From Panopea generosa (Eukaryota; Mollusca; Bivalvia; Adapedonta; Hiatellidae), in the NCBI GenBank assembly GCA_029582155.1, contig CM055901.1:38306616-38370615 (forward strand): a DNA stretch of 64,000 nucleotides. Direction: 5' to 3'. Numbering within the stretch: the first letter of the stretch is position 1; each line of letters starts with the position of its first letter. The notes under the pieces were generated by a model. That model did not search any database. It had not been told where the DNA came from and saw only the letters and a list, made by a program, of their open reading frames with translations. The position numbers and the translations under genes are program-made. This document shows positions 15,463 to 62,620 of this stretch, in pieces.

Positions 15463-16200
15463 TTAACATTGAGTTATTTCTATGTTTTAGACATTTACTG
15501 TAAAAACGACACTCCAGGATCTCCTGTGTTCTCTAGTGTTAAATTTAACTTATTTCTATGTTTTAGACATTTACTGTAAAACAGCACGCCAGGATATTTT
15601 GTGTTTTCTAGTGTTAAATTTAACTGATTTCTATGTTTAAGACATTTATTGTAAAAACAGCACGTCAGAATATTCTGTGTTTTCTAGTGTTAAATTTAAC
15701 TGATTTCTATGTTTTAGACATATACTGTAAAAACAACACGCCAGGATCTCCTGTGTTCTCTAGTGTTAAATTTAACTTATTTCTATGTTTTAGACATTTA
15801 CTGTAAAACAGCACGCCAGGATATTTTGAGTTCTCTAGTGTTAAATTTAACTTATTACTATGTTTTAGACATTTACTGTAAAACAGCACGCCAGGATCTC
15901 CTGTGTTCTCTAGTGTTAAATTTAACTTATTTCTATGTTTTAGACATTTACTGTAAAATAGCACGCCAGGATCTCCTGTGTTCTCTAGTGTTAAATTTAA
16001 CTTATTTCTATGTTTTAGACATTTACTGTAAAACAGCACGCCATGATCTCCTGTGTTCTCTAGTGTTAAATTTAACTTATTTCTATGTTTTAAACATTTA
16101 CTGTAAAAACAACACGCCAGGATCTTCGTGGTTTCCTAGTATTAACATTGATTTATTTCTATGTTTTAGACATTTACTGTAAAAACAGCACGCCAGGATC
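15463..16200. repeat. 75-bp minisatellite C containing the exon 1 acceptor, about 10 copies
   Basis: The unit runs from TTATTTCTATGTTTTAG through ACATTTACTGTAAAACAG to CTCTAGTGTTAAATTTAAC. The last copy supplies the acceptor and the first about 36 bases of the probable exon at 16170. Since 75 is a multiple of 3, the unit is open on both strands (15763-16182 plus, 15707-16039 minus); these frames are repeat products. Confidence 0.93.
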
Positions 16201-16275
16201 TCTTGAATTCTCCATTATTCAACAAACAAATCAAATCTGCAAATAACATTTTCAACTATAATACAGAAACTTTAG
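16170..16275 (+). CDS. Probable exon 1 of visible gene model (propeptide, upstream part)
   Basis: The exon is bounded by an acceptor (TGTTTTAG) and a strong donor (GTAAGTGA). It is open in one frame for 35 codons plus one base. That phase matches exactly the exon at 32431, which needs one preceding base to start. The two other frames hit stops. The protein is polar, with no cysteine and no recognisable domain, as expected for the variable start of an M12B propeptide. Its first 36 bases and its acceptor are the last unit of the 75-bp tandem array just upstream. The intron that follows is about 16 kb. The call rests on phase and splice sites only, so it is less secure than the later exons. Confidence 0.55.
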
Positions 16276-19200
16276 GTAAGTGAAGATGTCTCATTTCAAT
16301 GTGCATGCTACAGGTATTAGACGACCCAACATTAATGATGTTTCCTCTCGCCACGTGGAAAGGCCACAATAGTAGTGTCCATTGCTATTCCATCAATAGT
16401 TGGTAAATAGAGGGATTAACCCAGAACCAGAATCATAAAACAACTTAGTGTTAATTGCTGCACGTTCACGTGCAATTCTCTTCTAAGCTAAACGTAATTG
16501 TGACACATGTAATATAATACGAAAACTTGTCGATGTAAAAACAATTTTAATTATCAAATTCAAGTGAGTAGATAATTTAGGTAAAAGGCAGTTCAATAAG
16601 TATGTTGTTTTCGATTGAGCTCGTTTTTTGACACGTTACCTTCTTCTAGCTGTTAGTATTTACGGAGCTGTATGTGTTTGATATGACCATATTACCACCA
16701 ACTATTATACATTGTGGTAGGTCGTGAAAAAACATGTAGCCCCGTACTTGTATGTATAAGAACATCTTACTATACAAACATCTTAACTATGGCGATGCCA
16801 TTCCACTTGTTGTTCAAAGTGAAACGTTAACACGAAGTGTAGGTCAACGTCAATACCAGTTATTTGGAGGCGCAGTTAACACGAAGTGTAGATTAATGTC
16901 AATACCAGTTATTTTGAGGCGCAGTTAACACGAAGAGTAGATCAATGTCAATACCAGTTATTTGGAAGCGCAGTTAACACGAAGTGTAGATCAATGTCAA
17001 TACCAGTTATTTGGAGGCACAGTTAACACAAAGTGTAGATCAATGTCGATACCAGTTATTTGGAGGCACAGTTCACACGAAGTGTAGATCAATGTCAATA
17101 CCAGTTATTTGGAGGCACAGTTAACACGAAGTGTAGATCAATGTCAATACCAGTTATTTGGAGGCACAGTTAACACGAAGTGTAGATCAATGTCAATACC
17201 AGTTATTTGGAGGCGCAGTGAACACGAAGTGAAGGTCAATGTCAATACCAGTTATTTGGAGGCACAGTTAACACGAAGTGTAGGTCAATGTCAATACCAG
17301 TTACTTGGAGGCACAGTTAACACGAAGTGTAGGTCAATGTCAATACCAGTTATTTTGAGGCGCAGTTAACACTAAGTGTAGGTCAATGTCAATACCAGTT
17401 ATTTTGAGGCGTGGTTAACACGAAGTGTAGGTCAATGTCAATACCTGTTATTTGGAGGCGCAGTTAACACGAAGTGTAGATCAATGTCAATACCAGTTAT
17501 TTGGAAGCACGGTTATCACGAAGTGTAGATCAATGTCAATACCAGTTATTTGGAGGCACAGTTAACACGAAGTGTAGGTCAATGTCAATACCAGTTATTT
17601 TGAGGCACGGTTATCACGAAGTGTAGATCAATGTCAATACCAGTTATTTGGAGGCACAGTTAACACGAAGTGTAGGTCAATGTCAATACCAGTTATTTTG
17701 AGGCACGGTTATCACGAAGTGTAGATCAATGTCAATACCAGTTATTTGGAGGCGCAGTTCACACGAAGTGTAGGTCAATGTCAATACCAGTTATTTGGAG
17801 GCGCGGTTAACACGAAATGTAGATCAATGTCAATACCAGTTATTTGGAAGCACGGTTATCACGAAGTGTAGATCAATGTCAATACCAGTTATTTGGAAGC
17901 ACGGTTATCACGAAGTGTAGATCAATGTCAATACCAGTTATTTGGAGGCACAGTTAACACGAAGTGTAGGTCAATGTCAATACCAGTTATTTGGAAGCAC
18001 GGTTATCACGAAGTGTAGATCAATGTCAATACCAGTTATTTGGAGGCACAGTTAACACGAAGTGTAGGTCAATGTCAATACCAGTTATTTTGAGGCACGG
18101 TTATCACGAAGTGTAGATCAATGTCAATACCAGTTATTTGGAGGCACAGTTAACACGAAGTGTAGATCAATGTCAATACCAGTTATTTGGAAGCACGGTT
18201 ATCACGAAGTGTAGATCAATGTCAATACCAGTTATTTGGAGGCACAGTTAACACGAAGTGTAGGTCAATGTCAATACCAGTTATTTTGAGGCACGGTTAT
18301 CACGAAGTGTAGATCAATGTCAATACCAGTTATTTGGAGGCACAGTTAACACGAAGTGTAGGTCAATGTCAATACCAGTTATTTTGAGGCACGGTTATCA
18401 CGAAGTGTAGATCAATGTCAATACCAGTTATTTGGAGGCGCAGTTCACACGAAGTGTAGGTCAATGTCAATACCAGTTATTTGGAGGCACAGTTAACACG
18501 AAGTGTAGATCAATGTCAATACCAGTTGTTTGGAGGCGCAGTGAACACGAAGTGTAGATCAATGTCAATACCAGTTATTTGGAGGCGCAGTGAACACGAA
18601 GTGTAGGTCAATGTCAATACCAGTTATTTGGAGGCACGGTTAACACGAAGTGTAGATCAATGTCAATACCAGTTATTTGGAGGCGCAGTTAACACGAAGT
18701 GTAGGTCAATGTCAATACCAGTTATTTGGAGGCGCAGTGAACACGAAGTGTAGGTCAATGTCAATACCAGTTATTTGGAGGCACAGTTAACACGAAGTGT
18801 AGATCAATGTCAATACCAGTTGTTTGGAGGCGCAGTGAACACGAAGTGTAGATCAATGTCAATACCAGTTATTTGGAGGCGCAGTGAACACGAAGTGTAG
18901 GTCAATGTCAATACCAGTTATTTGGAGGCACGGTTAACACGAAGTGTAGATCAATGTCAATACCAGTTATTTGGAGGCGCAGTTAACACGAAGTGTAGGT
19001 CAATGTCAATACCAGTTATTTGGAGGCGCAGTGAACACGAAGTGTAGGTCAATGTCAATACCAGTTATTTGGAGGCACAGTTAACACTAAGTGTAGGTCA
19101 ATGTCAATACCAGTTACTTGGAGGCGCAGTGAACACGAAGTGTAGGTCAATGTCAATACCAGTTATTTGGAGGCACAGTTCGCACGAAGTGTAGGTCAAT

Positions 19201-22200
19201 GTCAATACCAGTTATTTGGAGGCACGGTTAACACGAAGTGTAGGTCAATGTCAATACCAGTTATTTGGAGGCACGGTTAACACGAAGTGTAGATCAATGT
19301 CAATACCAGTTATTTGGAGGCACAGTTAACACGAAGTGTAGGTCAATGTCAATACCAGTTACTTGGAGGCACAGTTCGCACGAAGTGTAGATCAATGTCA
19401 ATACCAGTTATTTGGAGGCGCAGTTAACACGAAGTGTAGATCAATGTCAATACCAGTTATTTCGAGGCGCAGTTAACACGGAGTGTAGGTCAATGTCAAT
19501 ACCAGTTATTTGCAGGCGCAGTGAACACGAAGTGTAGGTCAATGTCAATACCAGGTATTTGGAGGCGCAGTTAACACTAAGTGTAGGTCAATGTCAATAC
19601 CAGTTACTTGGAGGCGCAGTGAACACGAAGTGTAGGTCAATGTCAATACCAGTTACTTGGAGGCACAGTTCGCACGAAGTGTAGGTCAATGTCAATACCA
19701 GTTATTTGGAGGCACGGTTAACACGAAGTGTAGGTCAATGTCAATACCAGTTATTTGGAGGCACAGTTAACACGAAGTGTAGATCAATGTCAATACCAGT
19801 TATTTGGAGGCACAGTTAACACGAAGTGTAGGTCAATGTCAATACCAGTTACTTGGAGGCACAGTTCGCACGAAGTGTAGGTCAATGTCAATACCAGTTA
19901 TTTGGAGGCACAGTTAACACGAAGTGTAGATCAATGTCAATACCAGTTATTTGGAGGCACGGTTAACACGAAGTGTAGGTCAATGTCAATACCAGTTATT
20001 TGGAGGCACGGTTAACACGAAGTGTAGATCAATGTCAATACCAGTTATTTGGAGGCACAGTTAACACGAAGTGTAGGTCAATGTCAATACCAGTTACTTG
20101 GAGGCACGGTTAACACGAAGTGTAGGTCAATGTCAATACCAGTTACTTGGAGGCACAGTTCGCACGAAGTGTAGGTCAATGTCAATACCAGTTATTTGGA
20201 GGCACAGTTAACACGAAGTGTAGGTCAATGTCAATACCAGTTATTTGGAGGCACAGTTCGCACGAAGTGTAGGTCAATGTCAATACCAGTTATTTGGAGG
20301 CGCAGTGAACACGAAGTGTAGGTCAATGTCAATACCAGTTATTTGGAGGCACAGTTAACACGAAGTGTAGGTCAATGTCAATACCAGTTATTTGGAGGCA
20401 CAGTTCGCACGAAGTGTAGGTCAATGTCAATACCAGTTATTTGGAGGCACGGTTAACACGAAGTGTAGGTCAATGTCAATACCAGTTATTTGGAGGCACA
20501 GTTCGCACGAAGTGTAGGTCAATGTCAATACCAGTTATTTGGAGGCGCAGTGAACACGAAGTGTAGGTCAATGTCAATACCAGTTATTTGGAGGCGCAGT
20601 TAACACGAAGTGTAGGTCAATGTCAATACCAGTTATTTGCAGGCGCAGTGAACACGAAGTGTATGTCAATGTCAATACCAGTTACTTGGAGGCACAGTTC
20701 GCACGAAGTGTAGGTCAATGTCAATACCAGTTATTTGGAGGCACGGTTAACACGAAGTGTAGGTCAATGTCAATACCAGTTATTTGGAGGCACGGTTAAC
20801 ACGAAGTGTAGATCAATGTCAATACCAGTTATTTGGAGGCACAGTTAACACGAAGTGTAGGTCAATGTCAATACCAGTTACTTGGAGGCACAGTTCGCAC
20901 GAAGTGTAGATCAATGTCAATACCAGTTATTTGGAGGCGCAGTTAACACGAAGTGTAGATCAATGTCAATACCAGTTATTTCGAGGCGCAGTTAACACGA
21001 AGTGTAGGTCAATGTCAATACCAGTTATTTGCAGGCGCAGTGAACACGAAGTGTAGGTCAATGTCAATACCAGGTATTTGGAGGCACAGTTAACACTAAG
21101 TGTAGGTCAATGTCAATACCAGTTACTTGGAGGCACAGTTCGCACGAAGTGTAGGTCAATGTCAATACCAGTTATTTGGAGGCGCGGTTAACACGAAGTG
21201 TAGGTCAATGTCAATACCAGTTATTTGGAGGCACAGTTAACACGAAGTGTAGATCAATGTCAATACCAGTTATTTGGAGGCACAGTTAACACGAAGTGTA
21301 GGTCAATGTCAATACCAGTTACTTGGAGGCGCAGTTCGCACGAAGTGTAGGTCAATGTCAATACCAGTTACTTGGAGGCGCAGTTAACACGAAGTGTAGA
21401 TCAATGTCAATACCAGTTATTTCGAGGCGCAGTTAACACGAAGTGTAGGTCAATGTCAATACCAGTTATTTGGAGGCACAGTTAACACGAAGTGTAGATC
21501 AATGTCAATACCAGTTATTTCGAGGCGCAGTTAACACGAAGTGTAGGTCAATGTCAATACCAGTTATTTGCAGGCGCAGTTAACACTAAGTGTAGGTCAA
21601 TGTCAATACCAGTTACTTGGAGGCACAGTTCGCACGAAGTGTAGATCAATGTCAATACCAGTTATTTGGAGGCGCGGTTAACACGAAGTGTAGGTCAATG
21701 TCAATACCAGTTATTTGGAGGCACAGTTAACACGAAGTGTAGATCAATGTCAATACCAGTTATTTGGAGGCACAGTTAACACGAAGTGTAGGTCAATGTC
21801 AATACCAGTTATTTGGAGGCACAGTTAACACGAAGTGTAGATCAATGTCAATACCAGTTATTTCGAGGCGCAGTGAACACGAAGTGTAGGTCAATGTCAA
21901 TACCAGGTATTTGGAGGCGCAGTTAACACTAAGTGTAGGTCAATGTCAATACCAGTTACTTGGAGGCACAGTTCGCACGAAGTGTAGGTCAATGTCAATA
22001 CCAGTTATTTGGAGGCGCGGTTAACACGAAGTGTAGGTCAATGTCAATACCAGTTATTTGGAGGCACAGTTAACACGAAGTGTAGATCAATGTCAATACC
22101 AGTTATTTGGAGGCACAGTTAACACGAAGTGTAGGTCAATGTCAATACCAGTTATTTGGAGGCACAGTTAACACGAAGTGTAGATCAATGTCAATACCAG

Positions 22201-31200: not shown

Positions 31201-34200
31201 ACGAGTGTACATACACTGGGACTGTTCGTTACAATTGGGACAGTTTGTTACAATTATGACGAGTGTACATACACTGGGACTGTTCGTTACAATTGGGACT
31301 GTTTGTTACAATTATGACGAGTGTACATACACTGGGACTGTTCGTTACAATTGGGACTGTTCATTACAATTATGACGAGTGTACATACACTGGGACTGTT
31401 CGTTACAATTGGGACTGTTTGTTACAATTATGACGAGTGTACATACACTGGGACTGTTCGTTACAATTGGGACTGTTCGTTACAATTATGACGAGTGTAC
31501 ATACACTGGGACTGTTCGTTACAATTGGGACAGTTTGTTACAATTATGACGAGTGTACATACACTGGGACTGTTCGTTACAATTGGGACTGTTTGTTACA
31601 ATTATGACGAGTGTACATACACTGGGACTGTTCGTTACAATTGGGACTGTTCGTTACAATTATGACGAGTGTACATACACTGGGACTGTTCGTTACAATT
31701 GGGACTGTTCGTTACAATTATGACGAGTGTACATACACTGGGACTGTTCGTTACAATTGGGACTGTTTGTTACAATTATGACGAGTGTACATACACTGGG
31801 ACTGTTCGTTACAATTGGGACTGTTCGTTACAATTATGACGAGTGTACATACACTGGGACTGTTCGTTACAATTGGGACAGTTTGTTACAATTATGACGA
31901 GTGTACATACACTGGGACTGTTCGTTACAATTGGGACTGTTCGTTACAATTATGACGAGTGTATATACTTTTCCAGTTTATTCTGGCACTGGTTCTGTTT
32001 GTTTGTCTTGAACTTCGTGGTTAGGACTAGTGTATGTATTGTGCGATTCTGCCAAAACTATTACATAAGTAAGGTACATACGGTACGGAATTGTCTATAA
32101 AATACCCATCTTTTGCATACAGGAACTGTGTGATCTTTTAATTTCTGTTTTTATTCCTGTCTCATAGTAGCGCAATATTAGAAGAATAGTATTTATATTG
32201 AAATGCAAGAATGTCATCGTTGGAGAAGGTTAGGACTGGTACACGGAATGGTTTTATATAAACGTTCTGTATCCGATAAAAGTAATTGAATTCCATGTCC
32301 AGTATGCAAGACATAACATTGTTTTCAAGACAGTAAGTACTAGTAAGCAATGTCTATTTGTGGTGTTTCCGGTATAACTGCTTATTATCCAAATACGCTT
32401 TTAATGTGTAACACGATTATTTTACCGTAGGTAGCAGTAGTGACCAACACCCTGCTGATGTTCTTATCTACGGAGATCCAGCTGTAGACAGGGACATAAA
32501 CATCAAAGTTCAGACTCCTGGACAGATATATCATCTAAATCTACAAAAATTCGATAAGAAGTTACTTCATGAAGACTTTAAAGTACTCACTGTCTTCACG
32601 GATAATTCCGGGAAAACAGTTTTTAATGAAGATAGCTCACCAGTAAGTAACATTATTTCGAAGTGATATTTTTCTACGTATTTCATCTTAAACTATGAAT
32701 TAACGTACATGACTAATTATTCTTTGACAGTGAACAAATAGACTAAAGTCATAAGGGTCTAGAATGAGTGTCAAGTTAGTAAATAGTTTCCAGTTGGTAG
32801 TTGGGGATTCCAATAACCAACTACCGACCAGTTGCCAGTTGGGGATTCGGATTCGTTATTTTTATTACTATTTAATTTACATATTTTACTGTGTTTATAT
32901 GTTTAAAAAAATAATCAATAAAAAATGTATGTAAATTAATATAAAATCTGAATCCCCAACTGGCAGCTGGATGCTCGCGGCGAATTCCAAACGGAACATT
33001 TTGAATCGCCGTCTAGTGAGTATACTCGGTATATTGAAGAACCAACTGGCACTGGTGTTTTATTTATTATTATTAACATGCTTTTTTATTAAATTGATAT
33101 GTTAATATAATAAAACAGTGATTTAAAAAAAATCCGAATCCTCAACTGGCAGCTGGTAAGTAGTTGGCGATTCGCGGCGAATCCCAAACTGGATATTTGG
33201 AATCGCCGTCTCGTGAGTAAACTCGTTATATTGAAGAACCAACCCGGCACTGGTGTGTTATTTATTATCAGAAACTTTTCTTCTTTTTTTTATTGAATTG
33301 ATATGTTGAAATAATAAAACAGCGATTTTTAAAAAAAACTCCGAATCCTCAACTGGCAGCTGCTTCGTGAATAATATTATAAATACATTTAGTAGACTAT
33401 GGTGATATTATAAATACATTTAGTAGACTATGGTGATATTATAAATACATTTAGTAGACTATGGTGATATTTGGCGGTAATTGTATCTTCTACGAAATAA
33501 GGGGCCAATGTGTATAGTAGCGAGCAAACAATGAAACTGCCTGTCAGTTGGGGATTCGGATTTTTTTTAAAAATTTTAAATAGCTGTTTTATTTTTTTAA
33601 CATATCAGTTCAATAAAAAAACAAGTTTATGATAATAAGTAACACCAGTGCTGGTTTGGTTCTTCAATAAAACGAATATACTCACCAGACGGCGATTCAA
33701 AATGGCCAGTTGGGGATTCGTATTTTTTTCTCAAATCGATATTTGTTTTCAAAAACAAATCAATTCTATAGAAAAACAGTTTATATCAATAAATAAACAC
33801 CATTTCCGCGTTGTTCCTTCAATATCATCAGTGTATTCATCAGGAGGCGATTCAAAATTTCCAGTTGGAGATTCAGCCGCGAATCGCCAACTACCAACCA
33901 GTTGCCAGTTGGGGATTCGGATTTTTTTCTCAAATCGATATTTGTTTTCAAAAACGAATCAATTCTGTAGAAAAACAGTTTATAACAAAAAATAAACACC
34001 ATTTCCGCGTTGTTCCTTCAATATCATGAGTGTATTCATCAGGAGGCGATTCAATAATAATAAAAAAAGACACCAGAACCGCGTTGTTTCCACAGTATAA
34101 CGAGTATACTCACCAGACGGCGATGCAAAATGTCCAGTTGGGAATCCGTCGCGATTCGTCAACTACCAACCAGTTGCCAGTTTGGGATGCAGATTTTATA

Positions 34201-37200
34201 TTAATTTACATACATTTTTATTGAATATATTTTTAAACATATTAACACGAGTAAAATATGTAAATTAAATAGTAATTATAATAACGAATCCGAATCCCCA
34301 ACTGGCAGCTGGTCGGTAGTTGGTTATCCAACTGCGAACTACCTACTAACTTTACACTCTTGGATCTAGATGGTTGACGAGGAATATTCATACTGTACGT
34401 AATAGTGCCCATATAGTTAGCCCGGTACAATTGCAGTTTGATTTACAGCTCATTTACAGCCCTTATTACCGTCCTTGATGTTAAACAATCTTCATTTTTA
34501 AACAACCTATACTATTTTGTCCCGTCTATCCCGCTGATGATTTAAGTTTTTGTACAATATCACGATAGCTGAAATCTGAACAAGCACACATGTTTTGCAG
34601 TAAAAATATGGCGAATTTCAATCAAATATAGGAGGTTATGTGGGGGCGTACGCCGGGTTTTTCAAAGAGTAGATCCGCCATTGATACAGGTTTACACGTA
34701 GTAATAATTGTTTTATCTTAGAAAGAGTCCGAATGACGTCAAGCAGTATTTTAGTGCTGTCTATTTTTTAGAATGGGGATTTCGTTTCAAGTTTACCACT
34801 TCAAGTTAAATATCGATTTTGTCACGTTTTGATGGATTTGACATACCAAACCATTCGGATTTTATTTATAAATGATAATGAGATGCTTATTATTTTTTTA
34901 AGACATTTATAGTGGGTTTTTTTTTGTCCATATATATTCCCTTTAAATTTATTAAATAGTCTATACATTAAGTTGCTACACGAATTTTACTGTTGTTGAT
35001 TTGTTTGTTTTGCCATGATATTTAAAACAAGATTATGGTGTTAATGTGGGTAGTCTTTCATAACAATTTATACATATAAAGCAAATTAATATTTGTCCCT
35101 GCATATTTTCAGCATATATTGCACGAGAAAGCGAGCCAGCTCCATTTTTATCACGACATATTGTCTGGGACGCTGGTCAGTGTGAGGGCCAACAATGAAT
35201 CCGGCAGCGGAAACATGAAGCACTACGTGGTCAGTTCTCCCATACTACAGTGGTCTCTAGTGTAATACCACGGCATAAACAGCCGGCTTACATTCGGCTT
35301 ACATTTAATTGATAGAAACAGTTAACCATATTTTGGGGAATGTCAAAATATTCAACATTTTTGGTCGGAACTCAAAACTTTTTATCAACATAACATTTGA
35401 TCTTATAGTTGTTGTTACATTTGGTGTAAAAGGGAAAGGTTTACACAATGCACTTATCAATTTTATTATAATAAGTGGTAAATGCTTTATTTTCAGAAGC
35501 AAGTATATAAATACAACCCAACGTTTAAATGTTTTTAAAAACCTATTTGAATAAAAGAATTGAAATTGAAAAACACATCGCTCTTAACAAAGATAAGTTG
35601 CAAAATCATAACTGGAAATGGGCACCTTTTATTTCCTAATATGTTATGTTAGAAAAAATAAATATTTCAAATAAACGTTTAAAATATTTTAAAAAACCCA
35701 AGAATACAAACGTCAGTTGGTCGGATTTAATCATTTATTACACGTAAGAATACAAACGTCAATTGATTTGATTTAGACATTTATTACACGTAAGAATACA
35801 AACGTTAATCTGATTGAACAAATCCGTATTTATAACAGTTCGTCAAACTCCAAAACATGCTGCAGAAAAACAAAATTTAATGGAAGATGTTGAATACTGC
35901 AATAATATCATGAGTTATGAAGCGGCTATTTTTACATTATCGTACTTTATTTATAGTTTTGAAATTGTACGACAAAATGTTCTCAATACAGTACAACAGT
36001 CTGTTTAAACTGGTGCAGTATTGTATTGGCTGTGACATTTGAAAATAGCTTAAAAATAAGAAATTTTGTCAGGGATAGAAACACCAACAGTATTTGCAAA
36101 CATGTCTTCGTTGTTAACACAAATTTGGCAAAAATGTACAACTGACATATTTGATCAAGCCCTTTTATTTGATACAAAACTCACAAAATATGTTTGTTTT
36201 TTGTTCGGGAGATGTTGTTAATGCAATAATTTGACCTGGAGAATAACCCCGATCAATACGACTTTGACTTTGCAGTTTGTGACTGTGTTTTACTGTGTAT
36301 TTGGTGTTGTTTTAATGGTACAGCTCTGTTATGTTGCAGTGTGTGACTGTGTTTTACTGTGTATTTGGTGTTGTAGTAATGGTACAGCTCTGTTACATTG
36401 CAGTCTGTCACTGTGTTTTACTGTGTATTTGGTGTTGTAGTTATGGTACAGCTCTGTTACATTGCTGTGTGTCACTGTGTTTTACTGTGTATTTGGTGTT
36501 GTAGTAATGGTAGAGCTCTGTTACATTGCAGTGTGACACTGTGTTTTACTGTGTATTTGGTTTTGTAGTACTGGTACAGCTCTGTTATATTGCAGTGTGT
36601 TACTGTGTTTTACTGTGTATTTGGTGTTGTAGTAATGGAACGTACAGCTGATATATTGCAGTGTGTCACTGTGTTTTACTGTGTATTTGATGTTGTAGTA
36701 ATGGTACATCTCTGTTTCATTGCAGTGTGTCACTGTGTTTTACTGTGTATTTGGTGTTGTAGTAATGGAACGTACAGCTGATATATTGCAGTGTGTCACT
36801 GTGTTTGACTGTGTATTTGGTGTTGTAGTAATGGTACAACTCTGTTACATTGCAGTGTGTCACTGTGTTTTACTGTGTATTTGATGTTGTAGTAATGGTA
36901 CATCTCTGTTTCATTGCAGTGTGTCACTGTGTTTTACTGTGTATTTGGTGTTGTAGTAATGGAACGTACAGCTGATATATTGCAGTGTGTCACTGTGTTT
37001 GACTGTGTATTTGGTGTTGTAGTAATGGTACAACTCTGTTACATTGCAGTGTGTCACTGTGTTTTACTGTGTATTTGGTGTTGTAGTTATGGTAGAGCTC
37101 TGTTACATTGCAGTGTGTCACTGTGTTTTACTGTGTATTTGGTGTTGTAGTAATGGTACAACTCTGTTACATTGCTGTGTGTCACTGTGTTTTACTGTGT

Positions 37201-40200
37201 ATTTGGTGTTGTAGTTATGGTAGAGCTCTGTTACATTGCAGTGTGTCACTGTGTTTTACTGTGTATTTGGTGTTGTAGTTATGGTACAGCTCTGTAACAT
37301 TGCTGTGTGTCACTGTGTTTTACTGTGTATTTGGTTTTGTAGTACTGGTACAGCTCTGTTATATTGCAGTGTGTCACTGTGTTTTACTGTGTATTTTGTG
37401 TTGTAGTAATGGAACGTACAGCTGATATATTGCAGTGTGACACTGTGTTTTACTGTGTATTTGGTTTTGTAGTACTGGTACAGCTCTGTTATATTGCAGT
37501 GTGTCACTGTGTTTTACTGTGTATTTTGTGTTGTAGTAATGGAACGTACAGCTGATATATTGCAGTGTGTCACTGTGTTTTACTGTGTATTTGATGTTGT
37601 AGTGGTACAGCTCTGTTATATTGCAGTGTGTCACTGTGTTTTACTGTGCATTTAGTGTTGTAGTAATGGTACAGTTCTGTTAAATTGCAGGAAGGTATTA
37701 TCCAGGATGACGTCATAATAGCTCCACCTGTCGCACATAAACGCCACAAACGGTCGTTACACCAAACAAAACATACGGTTTGGCCGAAAAAGCCAGACGT
37801 TCATGATTTTATCGATGATGAATTGTTTGGTAAGTTCTTCTGACGATTGATTAAAAACATAGGGTCTAAATTTCCTTTTTATGCTCCGCCATTCGAAGAA
37901 TGTTGAAAGAGCATTATGTGTTATCCCTGTTTGTCCGTCCGACCGTCCGTCTGTGTCGAAGGTCAAATTGGTTTACTTATCAATAACGTGTTAAAGGCTC
38001 TTTATATTTAACAAATATTTGTGTTATATGTAGTTGTATAATTATAAAACACAAGTCAAGTTCGATAGTTGCCATCGTCTGTCAAATTGTACAGGAGTTA
38101 TGGCACATTTTCGATTTATTCTTTAGTAAAATTTACATACATATAGTATTATAGGGACACATTTTTAGTTTATAAGATGTACATATGTACGCATGTTAAT
38201 AATCGAACCCACCCCCTTTGAAAATATCAATATATTAGTTAGTTGGAGTTATTTTATCAAACGGTGCCATCAACACCTTCACATCATACACATTAATCAC
38301 TTAGATCTTTCTATGTAATAGCAAATTTAATTTATTTTTATTCAGAATGGTAACTGAAATGTTGTTTTGTTATTCTAGTAGCCGGATTTAATTTTATTGA
38401 TAAAATACTTCACTGTACGGAACATTACCCGTTTGTCTTTAACCCGTTTGATTTGCCATTGTCTTGCCCCAATAATAGATAAGGTCAATATATTTCTTAA
38501 TTTCAAATTTATTCCATACTCTTTAATAAGCTAGTTTATTTTACTACAACAGTATGTAAAACCTGAAATATTTACCCAAGTAATTGTTCCCCCCTTTTCC
38601 CTCTTTCACAAATAAGTTTTCAATGACATGTTACCATTATTCTTGTAAGCATATATATCTACTTATAATTTCTGGCACTGTTATGTCGTTTGGAATGGAA
38701 CATGACCTTCAGTAATCATTACCCAGTTGTATATAACTGCAATCACGTAATACATACTATAGTATAATATACTAACCTGAAATCGGAATAATTAATAGTG
38801 AAGTTGATAGTGTTGTCCGCTCACGCCAGAGGGTTCGGTCCCAGCTCGACCCGATGACTGTAAAATAACAACACTCAGTACTGGTTCTAACCAGGTAGCG
38901 GACTTTCAAGAGAGCCGGTTGAGCTTTCTTCGCAATCAAGCTAAAATAAGTTTACACAAAGTGAGCATAATGATTAAATTAAACAGTTTTAATGGAGATT
39001 GAAGAGAATCATGCTGAAGGGCTAAAGTGGTACGTGAACCATTGCTGTTTTGTTGTCTAATATTAAATGGATATTTTGTCATTATAAAAGTTCAAATAAA
39101 AAATAACAAATCAGGGTATAGGCATTTAAATAACTTACTTCACGTTGGCTGGATAATGTATCGAATCCTATTTAACCGTTAAAACATTTGAAAACTTCCA
39201 CTGCTGACTTACTTGTCTCATATCATGATCGAGCATACACTGTATAAGGTCTAGTTATGCAGTGTTTGGTATCGTAGTGTTAAAACATGTAACATTGACT
39301 ACAGTTATATACCTGACGTGTATATACCTGCCTGATGTGTATATACCTGACGTGTATATACCTGCCTGATGTGTAAATACCTGATGTGTATATACCTGAC
39401 GTATATATCTGTTTGATGTCGTAATTGAACTAACAACTATGACATGCTAATTGCTTTTCATCGTAATGAAAGTTTTATTATGGTCGTATGTTTTGTATGT
39501 GTCGCAAAAAATATTCACCTCCTGAACGCACTTTTGTTCTGTCTTTTATTAAGATATAACATAATTAGACATTTCCTGCAAATACATAATTCCAAAAGAA
39601 AATTCTGAAAAAAATACATTTGGAAAAAAACATTTAAGTTCATAAATCATTTTAAAACAAACCATGTTAAAACAACTGACAGCTTTCAAAAGCGTGTCAA
39701 CTTTATAAATGTATTAGACATATTTATTTTTTGCTCTGTATTGTATGGTTGGCAATAGTAATTATGTACAATGTATTTAAAAAAACTTGCTAGATCGTTC
39801 AGCATACGATCAGTTATTCATAATTAAAAGCGTGGTAGCGTTCGTCCCATTCTGTCTCTATTTATGGGAGGTTTCACGATTATAAACCTATTGACGTTAT
39901 CGCTCAAACAAATTGATGGAAGTGTGATCTTTATTATAATAGGGCTTTTTTGAAAGCCTGGCCTAATAACACACAATATAACAGGGATTTTGATCGGCTG
40001 ATATAAACTGAGTTCCGTTGAACATGCACTAATTTCTAAATAACTTTGGGGCTAGCTTCCCAAACATTACTATATGGACACATTTTTGCTATTACTCCAG
40101 TGCCACCAAGTGTTGACAACCTGAAGTTTCCAACATACTTCCATTTGAATAATTCGTCTGAAACAAGTGCCAGTTCCCGCTCAGTTCCATACACGTCACA

Positions 40201-43200
40201 TACTGCTGGTTCCGCATCCTACAAACAATATCGACAGAAGCGGCAGACGAAGACAGCGGTCACGAAGATCGAACCAGAGCTACTCCTATTTTGCGACAAT
40301 GCAATGGTGAAACAATTTGAAGGAGACACAGACGAACTTCTAGAGTATTTACTTCATTTTTGGCACGCAGTGAGTAGTAATACTGGAATACCAATAAACG
40401 ATCTAGGCAATATCCGCCGAACTTGTCTTGAAGTTTCCGTTTAATTTACAAATGGTCCAAAAGAAAAACATTTTGGCCAAAACCCGAAACTAAAAGTAAC
40501 AGAAGGTTTCTTTGCGATTTTGACAAGTATATAAAAATATATAAACTCCTTTTTAGCATACTAAAAGTTTTAGAAAATCGAAGAATATGAAGTTTGATTT
40601 TTTCAGGTTTTATTGATACGCATATTTATATTAAATGATAAAATGTGTTATTATCTGTTCGGGTAGAAAGTATAGATATGTATACGAAATATTCAAGTTT
40701 TGTTGACATTTTCATATAGACTAAGTGATAACATTATGTTATATTAACCTACATGCTTTTGTAAGTGCTTGGTATTAAAAAACACATGTAATGTGATAAC
40801 AATAGTTTAAGAAAACCCCACACACCTCTATCATAACGTGAAAAAATGGTACTTCAAATATTTATCAGTTGCGTCGCACTTCTTATATTATTGGTTTGTA
40901 TCTATAATACAACTTTTTCACGTACACATGAACGCCTTCAAAGTGCGCTACTTCGACTGTAACAATGTTCACTACAGCCCGTGCTTCTTACATGTGCGTC
41001 GCGCCATGCGGCAACCTAACTTTACACTTACATCTAACCATTTTCAATACACTAATAAACTGTCTGGTGTAGGGGCTTTCAGTGTTTGATCTTACGTTGT
41101 ACTACGTTCCAGTCCCATTCCTCTGATATATGCCATCTTTATCCTTCCATACTTGAATTTGATGAAACATTCTGATGTTATGATGCAGACGTTGATGCAA
41201 ACGTTGATGGTATACGCACAGGTGTCACAAATGTAATACTTGCAAGGCAGCTTTCTTGAAGGACTCATTAGAGTATCAATGGTTTATCCCGGTTTTCCAT
41301 TGTACACAATTATTAATGCCTCCTCTCCTGATTGGGCAATTGTAACGTTTGTGGAAGTTTCGTCATCCAAAACAAAAAGCAATCACGGAATTTCTGATTT
41401 ATTTGAAACTTCCGAAGTAAAAGTCCTGTTCCCGTACCAAACAGACGAGATGTTGTGTCACATCCAATAACAGCATGTATGAATAATGTATGTTTGCAAA
41501 CTTCTTTCCCTAGCTTTATTTTTGTAAGCTTTGCGCTTTAAATAGATAAGGAGCAGTATCCGTATCACCATTGACTGCATGTTCCACAGATGTATTCACG
41601 TTTAAGTCATCTGCATCTCTTACTGCTTGTCACTTGTATCGTATGCCCCCTTTAAACATGTTAATTAAGCCTTGCTTATTATTTGTTTAAGCAAGGAACG
41701 TATCTTTTTGTGTGTATTGTCAGTTCACCTACGAATATTATTTTTCACCCATGTCCAGTATTACATCTAAGGTGTACAGTATATTAGAGGAGTCCTCCAA
41801 ATATCCAATCAAATACAACCACCGATCCCTTTCAATGCTTTTCGACAATATACCGCAAATACAAGTCTTATTAATAAAAAGGTATCCAGGTATATGTATA
41901 TATCGTAACCTTTTGGCCATGGGAGTTGCTGTGTTAAAATTCCTCCGTCAATGACATACTGACTTTCTGTCGTCATAGTTTGTGGTTCTATAGCAACAAC
42001 TCTCCAGATTACTAAAGGTTCAGATAATTTGAATCGAAGAGAGCCGAGGTAGGTACATACTTGATAAGTAATTAATGAAGATAGTTCCACTCTGATCAAC
42101 ATAACCGAAGCAGCAGAAATCCACCGATGAAAACATAGCTGAAGATCGACTTGTATTATTTCATAGTTTATCTCAACCGCAACTTTAAAACTCAGTGTAT
42201 CAGCCTGTTTTGTTTTATTTTTTAAAATAATACTAATTGGCGTCATGTTCTTCCATGGATTTAATACTGTCACTACCAGTATCCCTAGATTTATCACTAA
42301 TACCACTACCAGTATACCTGGAGTTATCAATATTAACATTTTATCTTCCATAACAACAATACTGCTTAGCGATGGATCGCCAGTGAAAGGATTTCATAAT
42401 TTGACAAAGCTGACAATTTGTTTCATTCTGTGACTGCCTTGCTTTGCAATTCTTTTTGTGCTCACATGATGTATACATAGCGTTTGCATACCCTGATGTA
42501 CCTCAGCACATTTCGGTGTAGATAACAGGCTAACTGTTCTTTGTATTTCAGTCATACTATTGCCACTACTTATGACACCACCGGTTGTTCCAGTACCCTT
42601 AATTAGTATGTGCTCTTTGATCAAACTATCGAGAGTCCAGCCCAGTATAACCGCTTCTTCCTACATCAAGATACCTTAATTTAAGAAACTTAAATACAGT
42701 ATGATGTTGTCATTCCGTTGTTTTAACATACTACATGTCGTATTGTACAAGTACAGATACCATTATTTCAAATAAGGTGTGTGGCAACCCTTAGTGTAAC
42801 AAAAACAATAAAACAATATAGAAAAAAAACAACCTTAACATAACAACTGTTACACTAAGCGTATGTTTGGTACATGTATTGACATTTGATTATAAAACAG
42901 GTTCACTTAGTGTAACAATTTTTTTAGAAATTATTTATCCCTGCTATGAAATGGGGGAATATAGTGTTATCCATGTTCGTCCGTCCGCACACACGAATGG
43001 GTAGTTAAGTGTTTAGGGTTAGAAGTTTTTTGGACGATTGAAAAATAGCTGAAAAAAGTGTGCAGACAAAGAGCCGAATTTCCCTTACGTCTGAGTTTGA
43101 TGCTCACTGTCTCAAAAAGTTCAAACATCTCTAAGTATTGCATCCATAATAGTGCCGTTCTTCTATGCGTTTTCTTGTAGGTGTTTGGTTTTTTGTTTAG

Positions 43201-46200
43201 CAAATTATTTAGGCTTAAAGTTGCAACTTTTATATCAGTGTGTGTTTCACACTTTGAGTTAGTTAGAACCTCTACATTGTGTTCTTCCTCATAATATTCA
43301 AAAATGCGTTCTTCTGAGACAATGTCTCATATATTACCCAAGTGGAGTGACTTCTTGAAATGTCTCAGATACTCTTCCGACAGTGGCAGTGGTATTGTCC
43401 GTATTTCGAAATTCAAAGTTGTGTCCTTGTTCCTCTTCACATTCCGCTAAGCATACGCCCTACAGTTGTATCCCCTACAGTTGTATCCCCTACTGGTGTA
43501 CCCCCCACAGTTGTATCCCCTACAGGTGTATCCCCTACAGTTGTATCACATACAGCTGTATCCCCTACAGTTGTACCTCCTACAGTTGTATTCCCTACAG
43601 TTGTTTCCCCTACAGTTGTATCCCATACAGGTGTATATCCTACAGTTGTATACCCTACAGTTGTTTCCCCTACAGTTGTATCCCCTACAGTTGTACCCAC
43701 TACAGTTGTACCCCTACAGTTGTATCCCCTACAGTTGTATTCCCCACAGTTGTATCCCCCTACAGTTGTATCACCTACAGTTCTATCCCCTACAGCTGTA
43801 TACCCTACAGTTGTATCCCCCCCTACAGTTGTATCCCCAACAGGTGTATACCCTACAGTTGTATCCGCTTCCGTTGTATCCCCTACAGGTGTATCCCCCT
43901 ACAGTTGTATCACCTACAGTTGTATCCCCTCCAGTTGTAATCCCCTACAGTTGTATCGGCATCAATGATCTCAAAAAACTCTTGTAGCCCCGAACCCCCA
44001 GTCAGATGACCAATGCTCCACAAAAAGCTCATTTCAACTTTGAATCTGATGTCCCAATCCTAGTACAATGTTTCACTATTCAGTGACTCGTTCTGTGGTG
44101 TTTCTAATGTCTTCTTCCATAAAGGCTGGTCATTAGCAAGTATAAACGTCACATATATGCTCGCTTACAAAGTTCATCGTTAAAATAATACGAGTTTCAT
44201 GATAATCATCGGCATGGGTCATATGCGATTTAAGTTACCTGAATGCTTTTGTTAATCAAATAGCGCGCGAACGATTACTTATTTTGCAAACTTATCTTAT
44301 ACAATTCACAGGCAACTGATTTATTATAGACAGAATGCAAGTTGTATATGACCTTGAATATGTTGTGATGTTTTACAAAATGGTCTTGATTTAAACGAAT
44401 TGCAGTTTGAAGTAAGATTTCAAGTACTTTTTAAGTTACAGTAGACACATTCTGAAATCACAAGCACTTCAACTTGAAACATAAATTGCTGGGGAAAATT
44501 TCGTTTTGTAGAGAATTTGGTTTGTATTCCAGAGATGAATGGAAGTTAAAAAATTTGAAACGATGTTTGGCGAGATTCTGCGTGAATACGCAAGCATTTC
44601 TAAATATCAATCAGTTGTTTTCACTTCTTTATATAATTCATTGGAGCAAAATTGAGATGTTCTGTTAGCTCCATTAAATTATAAACACCTACTATTTGAA
44701 ATTCGTTATTGGTTCATAATTCTTAAATGAAATCAGTGGGTGGGGTATTTCTTATTCTTTTTTATGTTATTTCATCGAAGTTTTTCTTACATAAAATTGA
44801 GTAATAATATGTTGTTTACTCGTTAAAACATTAAGTGTTGTTTAGCAAGCAGAAACTGGGCAAAGAAAAAAAATTATTTGTACTATCTACTTTTTTATGA
44901 TAGTATATTATGAAAACCCTTAGGATAAAAACATGAAAAAAAATACACTTTCATATCCTTCGATTTTCCTATATTTCTATATTGTATAGAGGTAAATGAA
45001 GGATCTCAAAACTACTTAGAAACCAAATGTTACTTTTAGTTTCGGGTCCTTAGGTAACTTAACTGGACTAAAAGTGTTAGTTTCTCTTATCACTATCTAT
45101 CACGCAAACATGTAAAACTTGACTTGTATTCGCCAGTAAGTAGCACATCTGCTAATATTCTTCACCTTTCATTTACACATGTTTCCAATGCGTGTAATCA
45201 TTTATTCAGATCTGGTGATATCCTTCATCTTTCATTTACACATGTTTCCAATATTTGTTATCTTTATTTACATCTGGTGATATTCTTCACATTTCATTTA
45301 CACATGTTTCCAATGTGTGTAATCCTTAATTTACATCTGGTAATATTCTTCACATTTCATTTATACATGTTTCCAATATTTGTTATCTTTATTTACATCT
45401 GGTGATATTCTCCACATTTCATTTACACATGTTTCCAATGTGTGTTATCCTTAATTTATATCTGATGCTATTCTTCACATTTCATTGACACATGTTTTCA
45501 ATATTTGTAATCCTTAATTTACATCTGGTAATATTCTTCACATTTCATTTATACATGTTTCCAATATTTGTTATCTTTATTTACATCTGGTGATATTCTC
45601 CACATTTCATTTACACATGTTTCCAATGTGTGTTATCCTTAATTTATATCTGATGCTATTCTTCACATTTCATTGACACATGTTTTCAATATTTGTTATC
45701 TTTATTTACATCTGGTGATATTCTCCACATTTCATTTACACATGTTTCCAATGTGTGTTATCCTTAATTTATATCTGATGCTATTCTTCACATTTCATTG
45801 ACACATGTTTTCAATATTTGTAATCCTTTATTTACATCTGGTGATATTCTTCACATTTCATTTATATTTGTTATCTTTATTTACACCTTGTGATATTCTT
45901 TTCATTACATTTACTCAGTCATGTTTCCATTTTTTTGAAATCCTTTATTTGCAGGTTAACTGGAAATTTCTCACAATTTCACTACAAAGGAAATGGCCAT
46001 ATATTGACATAAAAATAAGAGAAATAGGAGTATTTCGAGATGCCAACGCACAGCCCTTCATAGAAGAAAATCGAATACGACAAGGCAGCCGTTTATTTTC
46101 TTTATATGACGCTATGGACAGTTTACAAAGATGGCTCGTTAAATACGAGACGGTTTTACCGCTGCACGACATTGCTTTTCTACAAACAGGGTATGTGTTG

Positions 46201-49200
46201 TTTTACCGCTGCACGACATTGCTTTTCTACAAACAGGGTATGTGTTGTTTTACCGCTGCACGACATTGCTTTTCTACAAACAGGGTATGTGTTGTTTTAC
46301 CGCTGCACGACATTGCTTTTCTACAAACAGGGTATGTGTTGTTTTACCGCTGCACGACATTGCTTTTCTACAAACAGGGTATGTGTTGTTTTACCGCTGC
46401 ACGACATTGCTTTTCTACAAACAGGGTATGTGTTGTTTTACCGCTGCACGACATTGCTTTTCTACAAACAGGGTATGTGTTGTTTTACCGCTGCACGACA
46501 TTGCTTTTCTACAAACAGGGTATGTGTTGTTTTACCGCTGCACGACATTGCTTTTCTACAAACAGGGTATGTGTTGTTTTACCGCTGCACGACATTGCTT
46601 TTCTACAAACAGGGTATGTGTTGTTTTACCGCTGCACGACATTGCTTTTCTACAAGCAGGGTATATGTGATAAAACAACACATGTGCAAGTGCTGTTGTC
46701 ATATACTGTGTATTTTGGGTGTTCATAAAATATATACCATGCATTTGATTTTTCCAGTTGTATAAAATGATAAATGACATAATCAACAAATTATAACAAC
46801 TCACTTTACGGATCTCATTTCTTATAAAACATTTCGCGTTTTATCAGCGGATTATTTAGGCAGTTTACATGCGACCACTATCCAGGTGATCAGTATGCGT
46901 CAATGTTAGCATTTATTTATTGTAATGCTGTTTTATCATGGTGACAGTGCGTCTACACCCACCTAATTTAATAAGCATTTTTCAATAACCTTTTTATATG
47001 TTAATGTTTATGTTATACTAATGTTCTTCAGGAACGATGCCTGTAGAATGACAAGCCATACAAGACGATTTAAAGATAGCAGATTCAAAGGAGAAGAAGA
47101 GGAAGAGGAGATTGACGGGTGTGTGGCTGGAACAGCAGGTAACACTGATACACACTGTAGCACTATAACGATGAAACGGCAGGTAGCACTGACAAACACT
47201 GTAACACGGTAACAATGGAACAGCAGGTAACACTGATACACATTGTAATACTTGAACAGCAAGTAACACTGATACACAGTGTAACACTGGAACAGCAGGT
47301 AACGCTGACACACACTGTAACCATGGAACAGCAGATAACACTGGCACAAACTGTATCATTGGAACGGCAGGTAACACTGATACACACTGTAACACTGGAA
47401 CAACAGGTAACATTGACATACATACTGTAACACTGCAACAGCAGGTAACACTGATACACAATATAACACCGGAACAGCAGGAAACACTGGCACACACTAG
47501 AACACTGAAACGGCAGGTAACACTGATATACACTGTAACAATGCAACAACAGGTAACACTGGCACACACTGTAACACTGGAACGGTAGGTAACACAGATA
47601 CACACTGTAACACTGGAACAGCAGTTAACACTGACACACACTGTAACACTGGAACGGCCGGTAACACTGATACACACTGTAACACTGTAACACTGGAACA
47701 GCAGGTAACACTGATACAACAATTAACACCGGAACAGCTGGAAATATGGCATACATACACTAGAACACTTGAAGGGCAGGTAACACAGATACACACTGTA
47801 ACACTGTAACACTGTAACACTGCAACAGCAGGTAACACCGATACACAATGTAACACCAGAACAGCAGGAAACACTGGCACACATTAGAACACTGGAACGG
47901 CAGGTAACACTGGTATACAGTGTAACACGGCAAGAACTGGTAACACTGGCACACACTGTAACACTAGAACGGCAGGTAACACAGATTCACACTGTAACAC
48001 TGCAATAGCAGGTTATACTGATTCACACTGTAACACTGCAATAGCAGGTTATACTGATACACACTGTAACACTGCAACAGCAGGTAACGCTGATACACAC
48101 TGTTACCATGGAACAGCAGATTACACTGGCACACACTGTAACACTGGAACGGTAGGTAACACAGATACACACTGTAACACTGGAACAACAGGTAACATTG
48201 ACACACACTGTAACACTGGAACGGCCGGTAACTGATACATACTGTAACACTGGAACAGCAGGTAACACTGGCACACACTAGAACACTGGAACGGCAAGTA
48301 ACACTGATATACACTGTAACACTGCAACAACAGGTAACTCTGGCACACACTGTAGCACTGGAACGGCAGGTAACACAGGTACACACTGTAACACTGTAAC
48401 ACTGGAACAGCAGGTAATACTGATACACAATGTAACACCGGAACAGCAGGAACAATGGCACACACAAGAACACTGGAACGGCAGGTAACACAGGTACACA
48501 CTGTAACACTGTAACACTGCAACAGCAGGTAACACTGATACACAATTTAACACCAGAACAGCAGGAAACACTGGCACATACTAGAACATTGGAACGGCAG
48601 GTGACACTGATATACACTGTAACGCTGCAACAACAGGTAACACTGGCACACACTGTAACACTGGAACGGCAGGTAACACAGATACACACTGTAACACTAG
48701 GTTACACTGATACACACTGTAACACTGCAACAGCAGGTAACGCTGATACACACTGTAACAATGGAACAGCATGTAACACTGACACACACTGTAACAGTGG
48801 AACGACAGGTAACGCTGATACATACTTTAACATTGGAACAGCAGGTAACACTGATACACAATGTAACACTGGAACAGCAGGTAACACTGACACACACTGT
48901 AACAGTGGAACGGCAGGTAACGCTGATACACACTGTACCATTGGAACAATAGGTAACACTGATACATACTGTAACACTGGAAGAGCAGGTAACACTGACA
49001 CTCACTGTAACAGTGGAACGACAGGTAACGCTGATACATAATGTTACACTGCAACAGCAGATTACACTGATACACACTGTAACACTGCAACAACAGATTA
49101 CACTGATACACACTGTAACACTGCAACAGCAGGTAACGCTGATACACACTGTAACACTGGAACGGCAGGAAACACTAACAAACACGGTAACACTGACAAA

Positions 49201-52200
49201 CACTGGATCAGCAGGTAACACTGACAAACACTGAACCACTAATAAACACTGGAACACTGACAAACACTGAACCTCTGACAAACACTGGAACACTGACAAA
49301 CACTGACACACACTGTAACACTGACAAACAATGTAACACTGATATACATGGAACATTGACACACTCTGGAACACTGTAATAAATGTTTATGTTACAAGTG
49401 CTTCTAAATTTTAAATATTTTAAATCATGATAAATCGTGTAACAGTTCTATGGATTAGAAATATAGTGAAATGAAATAATATTATATATCAGGCACACAT
49501 GTATTCAATGACACTGCTGAGGTCGTGGTCACACTACCTGTTATGAGACAGTTTACCAGTTACTTGTGGAAGGGTGGTGTTTAGTTCTTCGTAAATCCTT
49601 GTATAAACATCTAGAATACATGTATAATGCAATATATAAATAATGATAACGTCGCTTCATAATTATGAAAAGCTCTCTAAATACATGAATCAGACTTTGA
49701 CAGAAAATAAATTATTCAGCGGAAATGGTGTTCTCGGTAGTGTTAATTTATTATAATAAATGAGAGTTGAGGTAATACATCATAAGATATCAAAAACCTA
49801 ATTGTTCAAATATTCAAATTGATTCAGAACGTATGGAAACGATTTAAATACGTGTTTTCATAAATTAATTGCCTTTTTAAGAATCATACACAAACAGAAT
49901 AAACTTCAGTATAATGTAGCTAACAGCAACATGAAGAACATGAGATAAACAGAAGAAATATATGTAGAAAAACATGAAGGTGAATAATAGTTTAGCTGAA
50001 CTATTTTGATATATTTAAACTATATACTGAATAGTTTGTATTTTAACTATATACTGAATAGTAAAAAAAAAAAGATGTATTTAAAGCAAACCTACTGACA
50101 CTTTTTCGTAAACATTTAACACTTTTTGAATTGAACAATTCAATAAATATCAATGTTTGGATTTGTTCAGTGATATCGTGTAAAAATATCGTGTTTATCC
50201 CAATTCTTTATATAGTGTGTTTTTGACAGAAAATGGAGCTCGTCGTAAATGTCTTCACATACGTTACACAACTTCTGGTAACGAGGTATTGCACGGTGTA
50301 GATGTGAAAACCACAACGTTGTACTTGTTTATGTTATATTTTGTTATGCAGATTCTTAGATATGCAGCAGGCTCGAAGATAGTTTAAAATTCTCAAACTT
50401 AGTTTAAGGGTTTTAACTTCTCTCTTGTTAGAAATAAACGTATCAAACAGCCTGATTTCAAATAATGAAAAAAAAGTGTGACCGTCTACAGAATATAAGA
50501 ATTCCCAAATATCAGTAAACTGATTTTTTCAAGAAGTGTTTTGACTTCAAAGATCCAATTATTTTTTATTCCCAATTCAGTAATTCAGTTAGTCTTAGAA
50601 ATATATTAAAACCCGTCAAAGTTCACAATTTTACCGCAACAGTGCTTTCTTTTTACTTGACAGTGTCCGAAAGACCCTCTATAAAGTTTGCTCCCGTTTT
50701 CTGCATCATTAATTATAGTCTATTTTAGTGTGTATGTTGTTTTTTTCCTGTTTTCATCCGTTTTGATATATATAATTATTTTAATAAGTTCCTTTGGTTT
50801 GACACAGGCGTCGCATACGTGAGAGGAGCATGTCTGTCGGCACCTTACTTCCGCAAGCTGGCCTATAACTTTGGAATAGGTGAAGCATCTACAAGCTTTA
50901 ACGGAGTGATTATAGCTGCTCATGAAGTCGGACATTTGTAAGAAAACTTTACATAGTTTATCTTTATTTAGTGTATTTTCTTACATTTAATATAAATATA
51001 CCCAGGAACACTCTTCTGGTTGACAAAGCAAAATATTAAATTTATATCAAATGGTATTAACTTAAATATCGGATAATCAGATACGAGGGGCAACAGAATA
51101 TGCAACTCTCCTCGCAGCTTAACACCTCAATGATTCTAATAAACGCGGAGTCGAAGTATGGATTTAAGGCGTTTATGTGAAGTCAGCGCAATGATTCCTT
51201 GGGAGTAGAAGAGGTTTCAAAGAAAAGAAAATAGCAAACTAATAAAAATCCTACGAAAATTACTGAATTGTTCGTATTACAGATTAGGTGCATATCATGA
51301 CGGGGAGGCAGAAGCGAGGAACTGTGCCAGCAACTCCGGCTATATCATGAGTTACTCCAGGGAAGATGCCTACAAATTTAGCCGCTTCTCTCCATGTTCC
51401 ATCAGAAGTTTCCAAAACTTTCTAAAGTAAGATGTTCAAGTGATCAAATAAAACGACAACAGAATCTTAATATAAGTAAATAGATAATGTTCATTTATTT
51501 TTATTATTTTAGTCATATATTTTAAATGAAAAACGAATGAAGAAATGTTTTTGTTTTAAAACAACCTTGAGAGACATTCAAGTATAAAATTACCTTACAT
51601 ATGATTGCTTGTTCTGCAGCATGGACAGATCGGCGTGTTTGAAACAGAGAGCGAGCACGGAGATAATGCAGTTTCCAACCTCGTTCCCTGGTACTTACAT
51701 GTCAATTAACGAACAATGCCGACGATTTACTGGCGGACCGCCGTGTGAGGTGAGTATACATTTAAACAAACTCTCATAACGGCGTCTAACATAAATGGAG
51801 TTTGCCGTATGAGCGTAGTCACCTTCCTACAGCCATTTAAGTACAGCTTGGTGATTGGTGGCTGAAATTCAAGCATTCTCAACCGATTCTAGAATATAAA
51901 CAGTTGAGACCCAGCTGCACGCGACATTTTAGCCAGTGTCCAGAGATTAGCCAGTGTCCAGAGATTAGCCAGTGTCCAGAGATCGTCATTTGTGTGATAA
52001 TAAAAGCACAAACAGGAGAGCAGACTTTTTTAGTAACTTTTCTGGGAGACTCTGTAAACATTACATCTATAAATCTGAATCATTTATACTTAATTTACTG
52101 GGCGACTCCGTAAACATTACATCTATAAATCTGAATCATTTATACTTAATTTACTGGGCGACTCCGTAAACATTACATCTATAAATCTGAATCATTTATA

Positions 52201-62575: not shown

Positions 62576-62620
62576 GTTACATCCGGTTCTGTATGCTGTA
62601 ATGGCAGGAGTAATTCCAGG

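Follow-up and report, generated by a model that had tools for sequence, protein, structure and literature searches.

Minisatellites at splice junctions of an ADAMTS-like gene of the clam Panopea generosa: comparison with amphioxus mirages

Background

The founding paper on mirages is reportedly that of Canestro in 2002. Mirages are minisatellite-like tandem copies of an intron-exon boundary, either 5' or 3', with units of 10-160 bp; the relevant passages of two reports place them in the amphioxus genes Adh3, BflGb6 and BflGb9 (globins), PGBD5 and troponin C, describe splice signals in many of the copies, and cite RT-PCR for normal splicing (PMC3087553, PMC3902484). As for human genes, intron 18 of ABCA7 carries a VNTR with a 25-bp repeat, the first GT of which is the splice donor of exon 18; according to the sections of that report dealing with splicing, retention of one unit (use of the next donor) accounts for ~2% of transcripts, and skipping of exon 19 rises with VNTR length (PMC5954066). 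In human segmental duplications, tandem repeats at exon-intron boundaries were linked to new introns, with splice sites duplicated or activated, in the part of the paper that treats them (PMC2812944). A literature search covering open-licence papers found no earlier report of molluscan mirages. An intronic 27-bp minisatellite is mentioned for abalone, its place relative to the exons not being given in that passage (PMC6905558), and the corresponding sections of a paper on gastropod hemocyanin treat intron gain, not repeats (PMC7931591).

Here, five minisatellites in one gene of Panopea generosa were analysed. The original prediction had proposed that they grew from the gene's own splice junctions.

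Methods

The window, i.e. the whole stretch of 64,000 nucleotides that was analysed, is C8:38306616-38370615 (genome, 1.47 Gb in 39 contigs). Tandem arrays were located with TRF, and the reach of each array was assigned by alignment of its terminal unit across the junction. For the chance test in this gene, the array list was merged by hand from the TRF rows; the end of the 63-bp array was moved to 45954, and the alignment reach was used for the 36- and 75-bp arrays. The gene stretch (15431-61325) holds 18 arrays. Raw window coordinates were rejected as the null because 30.8 of the 45.9 kb of this stretch is array; each array was collapsed to one unit before random placement (16.1 kb left, of which 1.7 kb is exonic).

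Other genes of the same genome were sampled at 90 loci around myosin, SNF (neurotransmitter symporter) and kinesin exons, which gave 78 blocks (273 kb in total). The Pfam hit rows used were 300 of 303, three kinesin rows without loci being left out. Hits with a 300-bp flank on both sides (112 hits) gave 224 edges. Of these, 171 were kept as junctions with a confident site; the other 53, which were dropped, lay at the end of the domain (18), lacked a site (2) or had a weak one (33). None of the dropped edges that had a site carried an array at -20 to +50. Note that the splice sites of the sample are predicted ones, taken as the best site near the end of the Pfam hit with a generic weight matrix. 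An array was regarded as touching a junction when its end lay no more than 20 bp outside or 50 bp inside the exon.

Results and discussion

The gene between 16 and 61.3 kb of the window encodes an ADAMTS-like M12B metalloprotease with the reprolysin and ADAMTS cysteine-rich domains (domain search). The gene model consists of 11 exons (A-K) with 566 open codons; all 10 introns are GT-AG, and the phases are consistent. The exons are as follows.

16170..16275, + strand: exon A, prodomain start, with the acceptor within the last array unit (gene model, aligned with relatives; start poorly conserved)
32431..32642, + strand: exon B (gene model)
35113..35229, + strand: exon C (gene model, relatives)
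37691..37829, + strand: exon D, with RHKR, presumably a prodomain cleavage-like motif (gene model, relatives)
40101..40369, + strand: exon E (gene model, relatives)
45955..46190, + strand: exon F, VNWKFLTISLQR...AFLQTG, with an array on both sides (gene model, relatives)
47032..47138, + strand: exon G, NDACR...VAGTAG (gene model, relatives)
50808..50937, + strand: exon H, zinc-binding HEVGH (gene model, domain search, relatives)
51283..51426, + strand: exon I (gene model, relatives)
51620..51749, + strand: exon J (gene model, relatives)
61218..61325, + strand: exon K (gene model, relatives)

The best-matching named proteins were from Mercenaria, Ruditapes, Mactra, Dreissena and Mya, all heterodont clams (72-78% identity; query coverage, at least 93%). 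Proteins of seven bivalve relatives are gap-free across C|D (KHYV|EGII), E|F (WHA|VNWK), F|G (QTG|NDACR) and G|H (GTAG|VAY). Thus, the junctions touched by four of the five arrays are well supported. The fifth, at the start of exon A, is the least certain of all, owing to poor conservation of this part of the protein. The protein of an eighth relative (P0014; Ruditapes philippinarum) is partial; it is continuous across E|F, and QTG is followed by an unrelated stretch. This stretch, integrase-like (PF00589 in the domain list) and lying between the parts that match exons F and H, is perhaps an annotation artefact. A paralogue search with PF01421 gave four matches in the genome.

Two other elements were observed in the window. 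Nested inverted repeats lie at 32775-34350 in the intron separating exons B and C (arms at 32813-32973 and 34167-34327, 85% complementary, with others inside), and look like a nested foldback or TIR element. On the minus strand after exon K (62016-63800), there are open frames split over several frames, which by eye we take to resemble portions (RNase H and integrase) of an LTR retroelement.

All five minisatellites (75, 64, 63, 47 and 36 bp) were confirmed by TRF. They are listed with a sixth array near exon K.

15463..16212, + strand: 75-76-bp array, ~10 copies, ~91% alike (TRF and terminal-unit alignment)
36270..37690, + strand: 64-bp array, 22 copies, ~88-90% alike, with its end at the acceptor AG of exon D (TRF)
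45145..45954, + strand: 62-63-bp array, ~13 copies, ~90% alike (TRF rows end at 45862-45913; end extended by hand)
46153..46668, + strand: 47-bp array, 11 copies, 99% alike (TRF, alignment)
47127..49378, + strand: 36-bp array, ~56 (TRF) to 62 copies, old (~75% alike; TRF, alignment)
52298..61181, + strand: 68-bp array, more than 120 copies, ending 36 bp before exon K (TRF)

The 68-bp array was not counted as touching, since its end is 36 bp short of exon K. It is one of four very large arrays found with TRF, the others being at 914-8084 (49-bp), 8285-15431 (29-bp) and 16826-30261 (49-bp); together they fill ~37 of the 64 kb, and the window is mostly minisatellite.

The 75-, 64- and 63-bp arrays had each been claimed to end as the 3' splice site of the next exon. 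This is exact for the 64-bp array, of which the homology stops at 37690, the last intron base; the first 38 bp of exon D showed no copy in the 64-bp unit (score, 16; shuffles, 17.6 +/- 2.9). The 75-bp array runs 43 bp into the exon: the unit joins the 3' end of the intron, with the acceptor TTATTTCTATGTTTTAG, to ~43 bp from the start of exon A, and the repeat crosses the acceptor at 16169|16170 and continues to 16212 in the terminal-unit alignment (TRF end, 16202). As for the 63-bp array, the claim is doubtful; the acceptor of exon F (45955) is reached only via a degenerate last unit, and TRF stops at 45913 or earlier. When the start of exon F was compared with the 63-bp unit, 5 of 1,000 shuffles were as good and the start was the best of 261 exonic 38-mers, with at least 5 of 772 mostly intronic 38-mers scoring higher; this is suggestive of a diverged copy of the exon F start in the unit. 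The inner units have no AG at the acceptor position, and 815 bp contain four AGs, the real one included. Because the 63-bp unit has none, the AG dinucleotide is absent over ~700 bp upstream of the acceptor (45210-45919).

On the donor side, the 47- and 36-bp arrays begin in an exon end plus its donor, just as had been proposed. The 47-bp unit is the last 38 bp of exon F followed by the donor GTATGTGTT, and the array begins at 46153, inside exon F. In the 36-bp unit, 12 bp from the end of exon G are followed by the donor GTAAC. These bases match exactly and in register with the donor, which takes the array back to 47127 within exon G (TRF rows begin at 47131). In the shuffle test for exon copies, none of 1,000 shuffles was as good for either the 75- or the 47-bp array; for the last 38 bp of exon G against the 36-bp unit the test was not significant (129 of 1,000 as good), and the support is the 12 exact bases. 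With the real signal included in each case, the 75-bp array contains 8 acceptor motifs, the 64-bp array 20 GCAG sites and the 36-bp array 42 AG|GT sites; the 47-bp array contains 11 donors, 10 of which are identical from 6 bases before to 6 bases after the exon-intron border.

The original prediction was therefore partly confirmed by these anatomies, and was right in substance. Its statement that the arrays abut exons to the base applies to one array, perhaps two, whereas three cross into the exon. Seeding from a splice junction is firmly supported for the 75- and 47-bp arrays, is supported for the 36-bp array by the 12 exact bases, and is doubtful for the 63-bp array; exon sequence is present in three of the five units, but the 64-bp unit has no exon base. 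Separate seeding events were borne out: the units are unrelated, and those of 75, 64 and 36 bp each match their own array alone in a genome search, which passes over very common words.

We consider, with a probability of about two in three, that these are mirage-type minisatellites, namely products of random tandem duplication filtered by selection, with the outermost site still in use. A short tandem duplication would arise at a more or less random place. If inside an exon, it would mostly be purged by selection; if in an intron or straddling a junction, it would survive, in the latter case because the outermost copy, the last one at an acceptor or the first one at a donor, would still be joined to the whole exon and spliced. 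With a duplication across an acceptor, the last copy would stay joined to the exon, and with one across a donor, the first; the others would become intron. The array would then grow and shrink on the intron side, presumably neutrally, and so would look anchored on the exon. The arrays differ in age (99% to ~75% alike), as expected of repeated unrelated events, and the 99% identity of the 11 copies of the 47-bp array fits recent growth, as judged from one assembly.

In this gene, five arrays touch the 22 junctions, against 1.1-1.6 expected of 18 seeds, depending on the slack allowed (P = 0.004-0.013, uncorrected for the reader's picking). With strict TRF ends (the 63-bp array as TRF ends it) the number is 4 of 22 (P = 0.023-0.065, likewise uncorrected). 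This test is not fair alone, because the window was picked by a reader who was looking for oddities. The excess of array ends at splice sites that had been expected was therefore sought in the sample, where it was found at borderline strength. The 273 kb contain 88 arrays with a period of at least 10, and 9 of the 171 junctions are touched against 4.8 expected by random placement (P = 0.044-0.047, i.e. ~0.045). Arrays spanning the junction (end 5 to 50 bp inside the exon) numbered 6 against 2.6 expected (P = 0.046), and those abutting it (-20 to +4) numbered 3 against 2.1 (P = 0.36); none of the nine ends lies within three bases of a junction (0.6 expected). Six of the 171 junctions have both exon and splice site in the unit, and the remaining three touching arrays end outside the exon.

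Myosin L008, donor: 31 bp of exon in the unit
Myosin L026, donor: 28 bp of exon in the unit
Myosin L016/L013, acceptor: 9 bp of exon in the unit
Myosin L003/L025, acceptor: 9 bp of exon in the unit
SNF transporter L042, acceptor: 35 bp of exon in the unit, 26 copies
Kinesin L079, donor: 21 bp of exon in the unit, 35 copies
L022, L066 and L039: arrays ending 7, 7 and 17 bp short of the junction

The binned density of array ends per kb was 0.58-0.88 at -20 to +50, 0.21-0.58 at -1500 to -60 and 0.15 at -60 to -20, with none at +50 to +100. With expectations worked out by hand from this profile, the nine touched junctions compare with 5.7 on the nearer background (-400 to -60; P = 0.13) and 4.1 on the wider one (-1500 to -60; P = 0.025). 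When the sample and this gene were pooled, the ends ranged from -17 to +43 bp, a spread bounded by the counting window of -20 to +50 itself, and 2 of 14 were within three bases; both of these belong to this gene, one being the hand-extended 63-bp array. Such a spread around the junction argues against a process with the splice site as its edge. A shared mechanism at exon edges, as suggested originally, is not needed, since the frequency at other junctions is near that of random placement and the ends are not pinned. Arrays touch junctions more often in this gene than in the sample: 5 of 22 versus 9 of 171 (Fisher P = 0.012), or 4 of 22 when the TRF ends are taken strictly (P = 0.046). For spanning arrays alone, the numbers are 3 of 22 versus 6 of 171 (P = 0.069). 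The difference fits the gene's having been picked out, and a modest true excess is compatible with it.

Random seeding together with the purging of exonic duplications explains most of the junction-spanning frequency. What counts against this account is an excess over random seeding that is small and of the same sign in both sets (9 versus 4.8; 5 versus 1.1-1.6). The foremost alternative is that junctions are birth hot spots, where R-loops, nucleosome edges, polymerase pausing or AG|GT microhomology raise the duplication rate, perhaps ~two-fold. Observed numbers above expectation in both data sets, and the spanning arrays in particular, speak for it; however, the significance is borderline on nine events, the window was chosen by a reader, the array ends are not pinned to the junction, and the mechanism is putative. 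We regard it as an unlikely, if serious, contender. It is with the same reserve, as a tentative and rather improbable estimate, that the junctions of this clam might be called hot spots of minisatellite birth, ~two-fold relative to introns, with ~1 in 20 touched and ~1 in 30 carrying tandem copies of its own splice site; the same would perhaps apply to other animals rich in minisatellites.

The copied sites bear on the reading that they are kept as useful extra splice sites (for alternative splicing, splice enhancement or slow splicing). If used, the inner sites would lead to stops in all 41 cases in the 36-bp array (AG|GT) and in all 19 in the 64-bp array (GCAG); in the 47-bp array, 7 of 10 inner donors would do so, the frame staying open with numbers 4, 7 and 10. 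Because the inner sites would mostly break the frame, we infer that the outermost splice site is the one mainly spliced. Since 10 of 11 donors of the 47-bp array are identical, the choice would have to rest on exon context or position. Conservation of splice-site versus other columns was 0.90 versus 0.86 (36-bp), 0.98 versus 0.94 (64-bp), 0.98 versus 0.94 (75-bp) and 0.991 versus 0.998 (47-bp), and per-column conservation gave no sign of erasure of the inner splice signals in these four arrays. Selection on the copied splice sites was considered and rejected, the column differences being small and in both directions. Usefulness of the copies would accord with the slightly better kept columns of the 36-, 64- and 75-bp arrays and with the three open-frame donors of the 47-bp array. 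However, the column differences are small raw ones, absent from the 47-bp array, nearly all inner sites lead to stops, the inner units of the 63-bp array have no AG, and the proteins of the seven relatives show the exons joined at the array junctions, without an insert; we therefore hold this reading to be very improbable.

Coincidence or a wrong gene model with borders elsewhere deserves still less credence: although the borders were predicted from sequence, with the start of exon A and the end of the 63-bp array not firm, the ten GT-AG introns with matching phases and 566 open codons, the contiguity of the relatives across C|D, E|F, F|G and G|H, and exon sequence within units, which is independent of the exact border, stand against it.

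Comparison with known systems

A unit that spans the boundary, as in mirages, was found in the 75-, 47- and 36-bp arrays and in the six arrays of other genes, and not in the 64-bp array. Four of the five arrays have copied AG/GT signals, the exception being the 63-bp array. By structure, three of the five clam arrays can thus be classed as mirages, a known but little-noticed phenomenon. The clam differs from amphioxus in being a bivalve, in having five arrays at the 22 junctions of one gene, with up to ~62 copies, and in that the frequency was counted against random placement; amphioxus splicing is backed by RT-PCR, whereas that of the clam is predicted from sequence.

The ABCA7 repeat is like the clam arrays in its many copied donors in a row. 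As described in that report's passages, it begins at the GT and not in the exon, and its transcripts were measured, whereas the clam arrays were read from DNA only. If splicing is normal, each intron of this type is a natural experiment in splice-site choice, in which local sequence alone cannot decide.

As for intron gain by internal tandem duplication, for which Rogers, Gao and Lynch are said to be the source, the clam differs in that no new intron or exon was seen forming; existing introns grow, as far as one assembly tells. The arrays point to a route of intron growth, and gene prediction may err in minisatellite-rich genomes. The present data extend mirages from lancelets to a bivalve, and give their frequency in a sample from one genome, where arrays touch 9 of 171 junctions and exon copies occur at 6 of 171.
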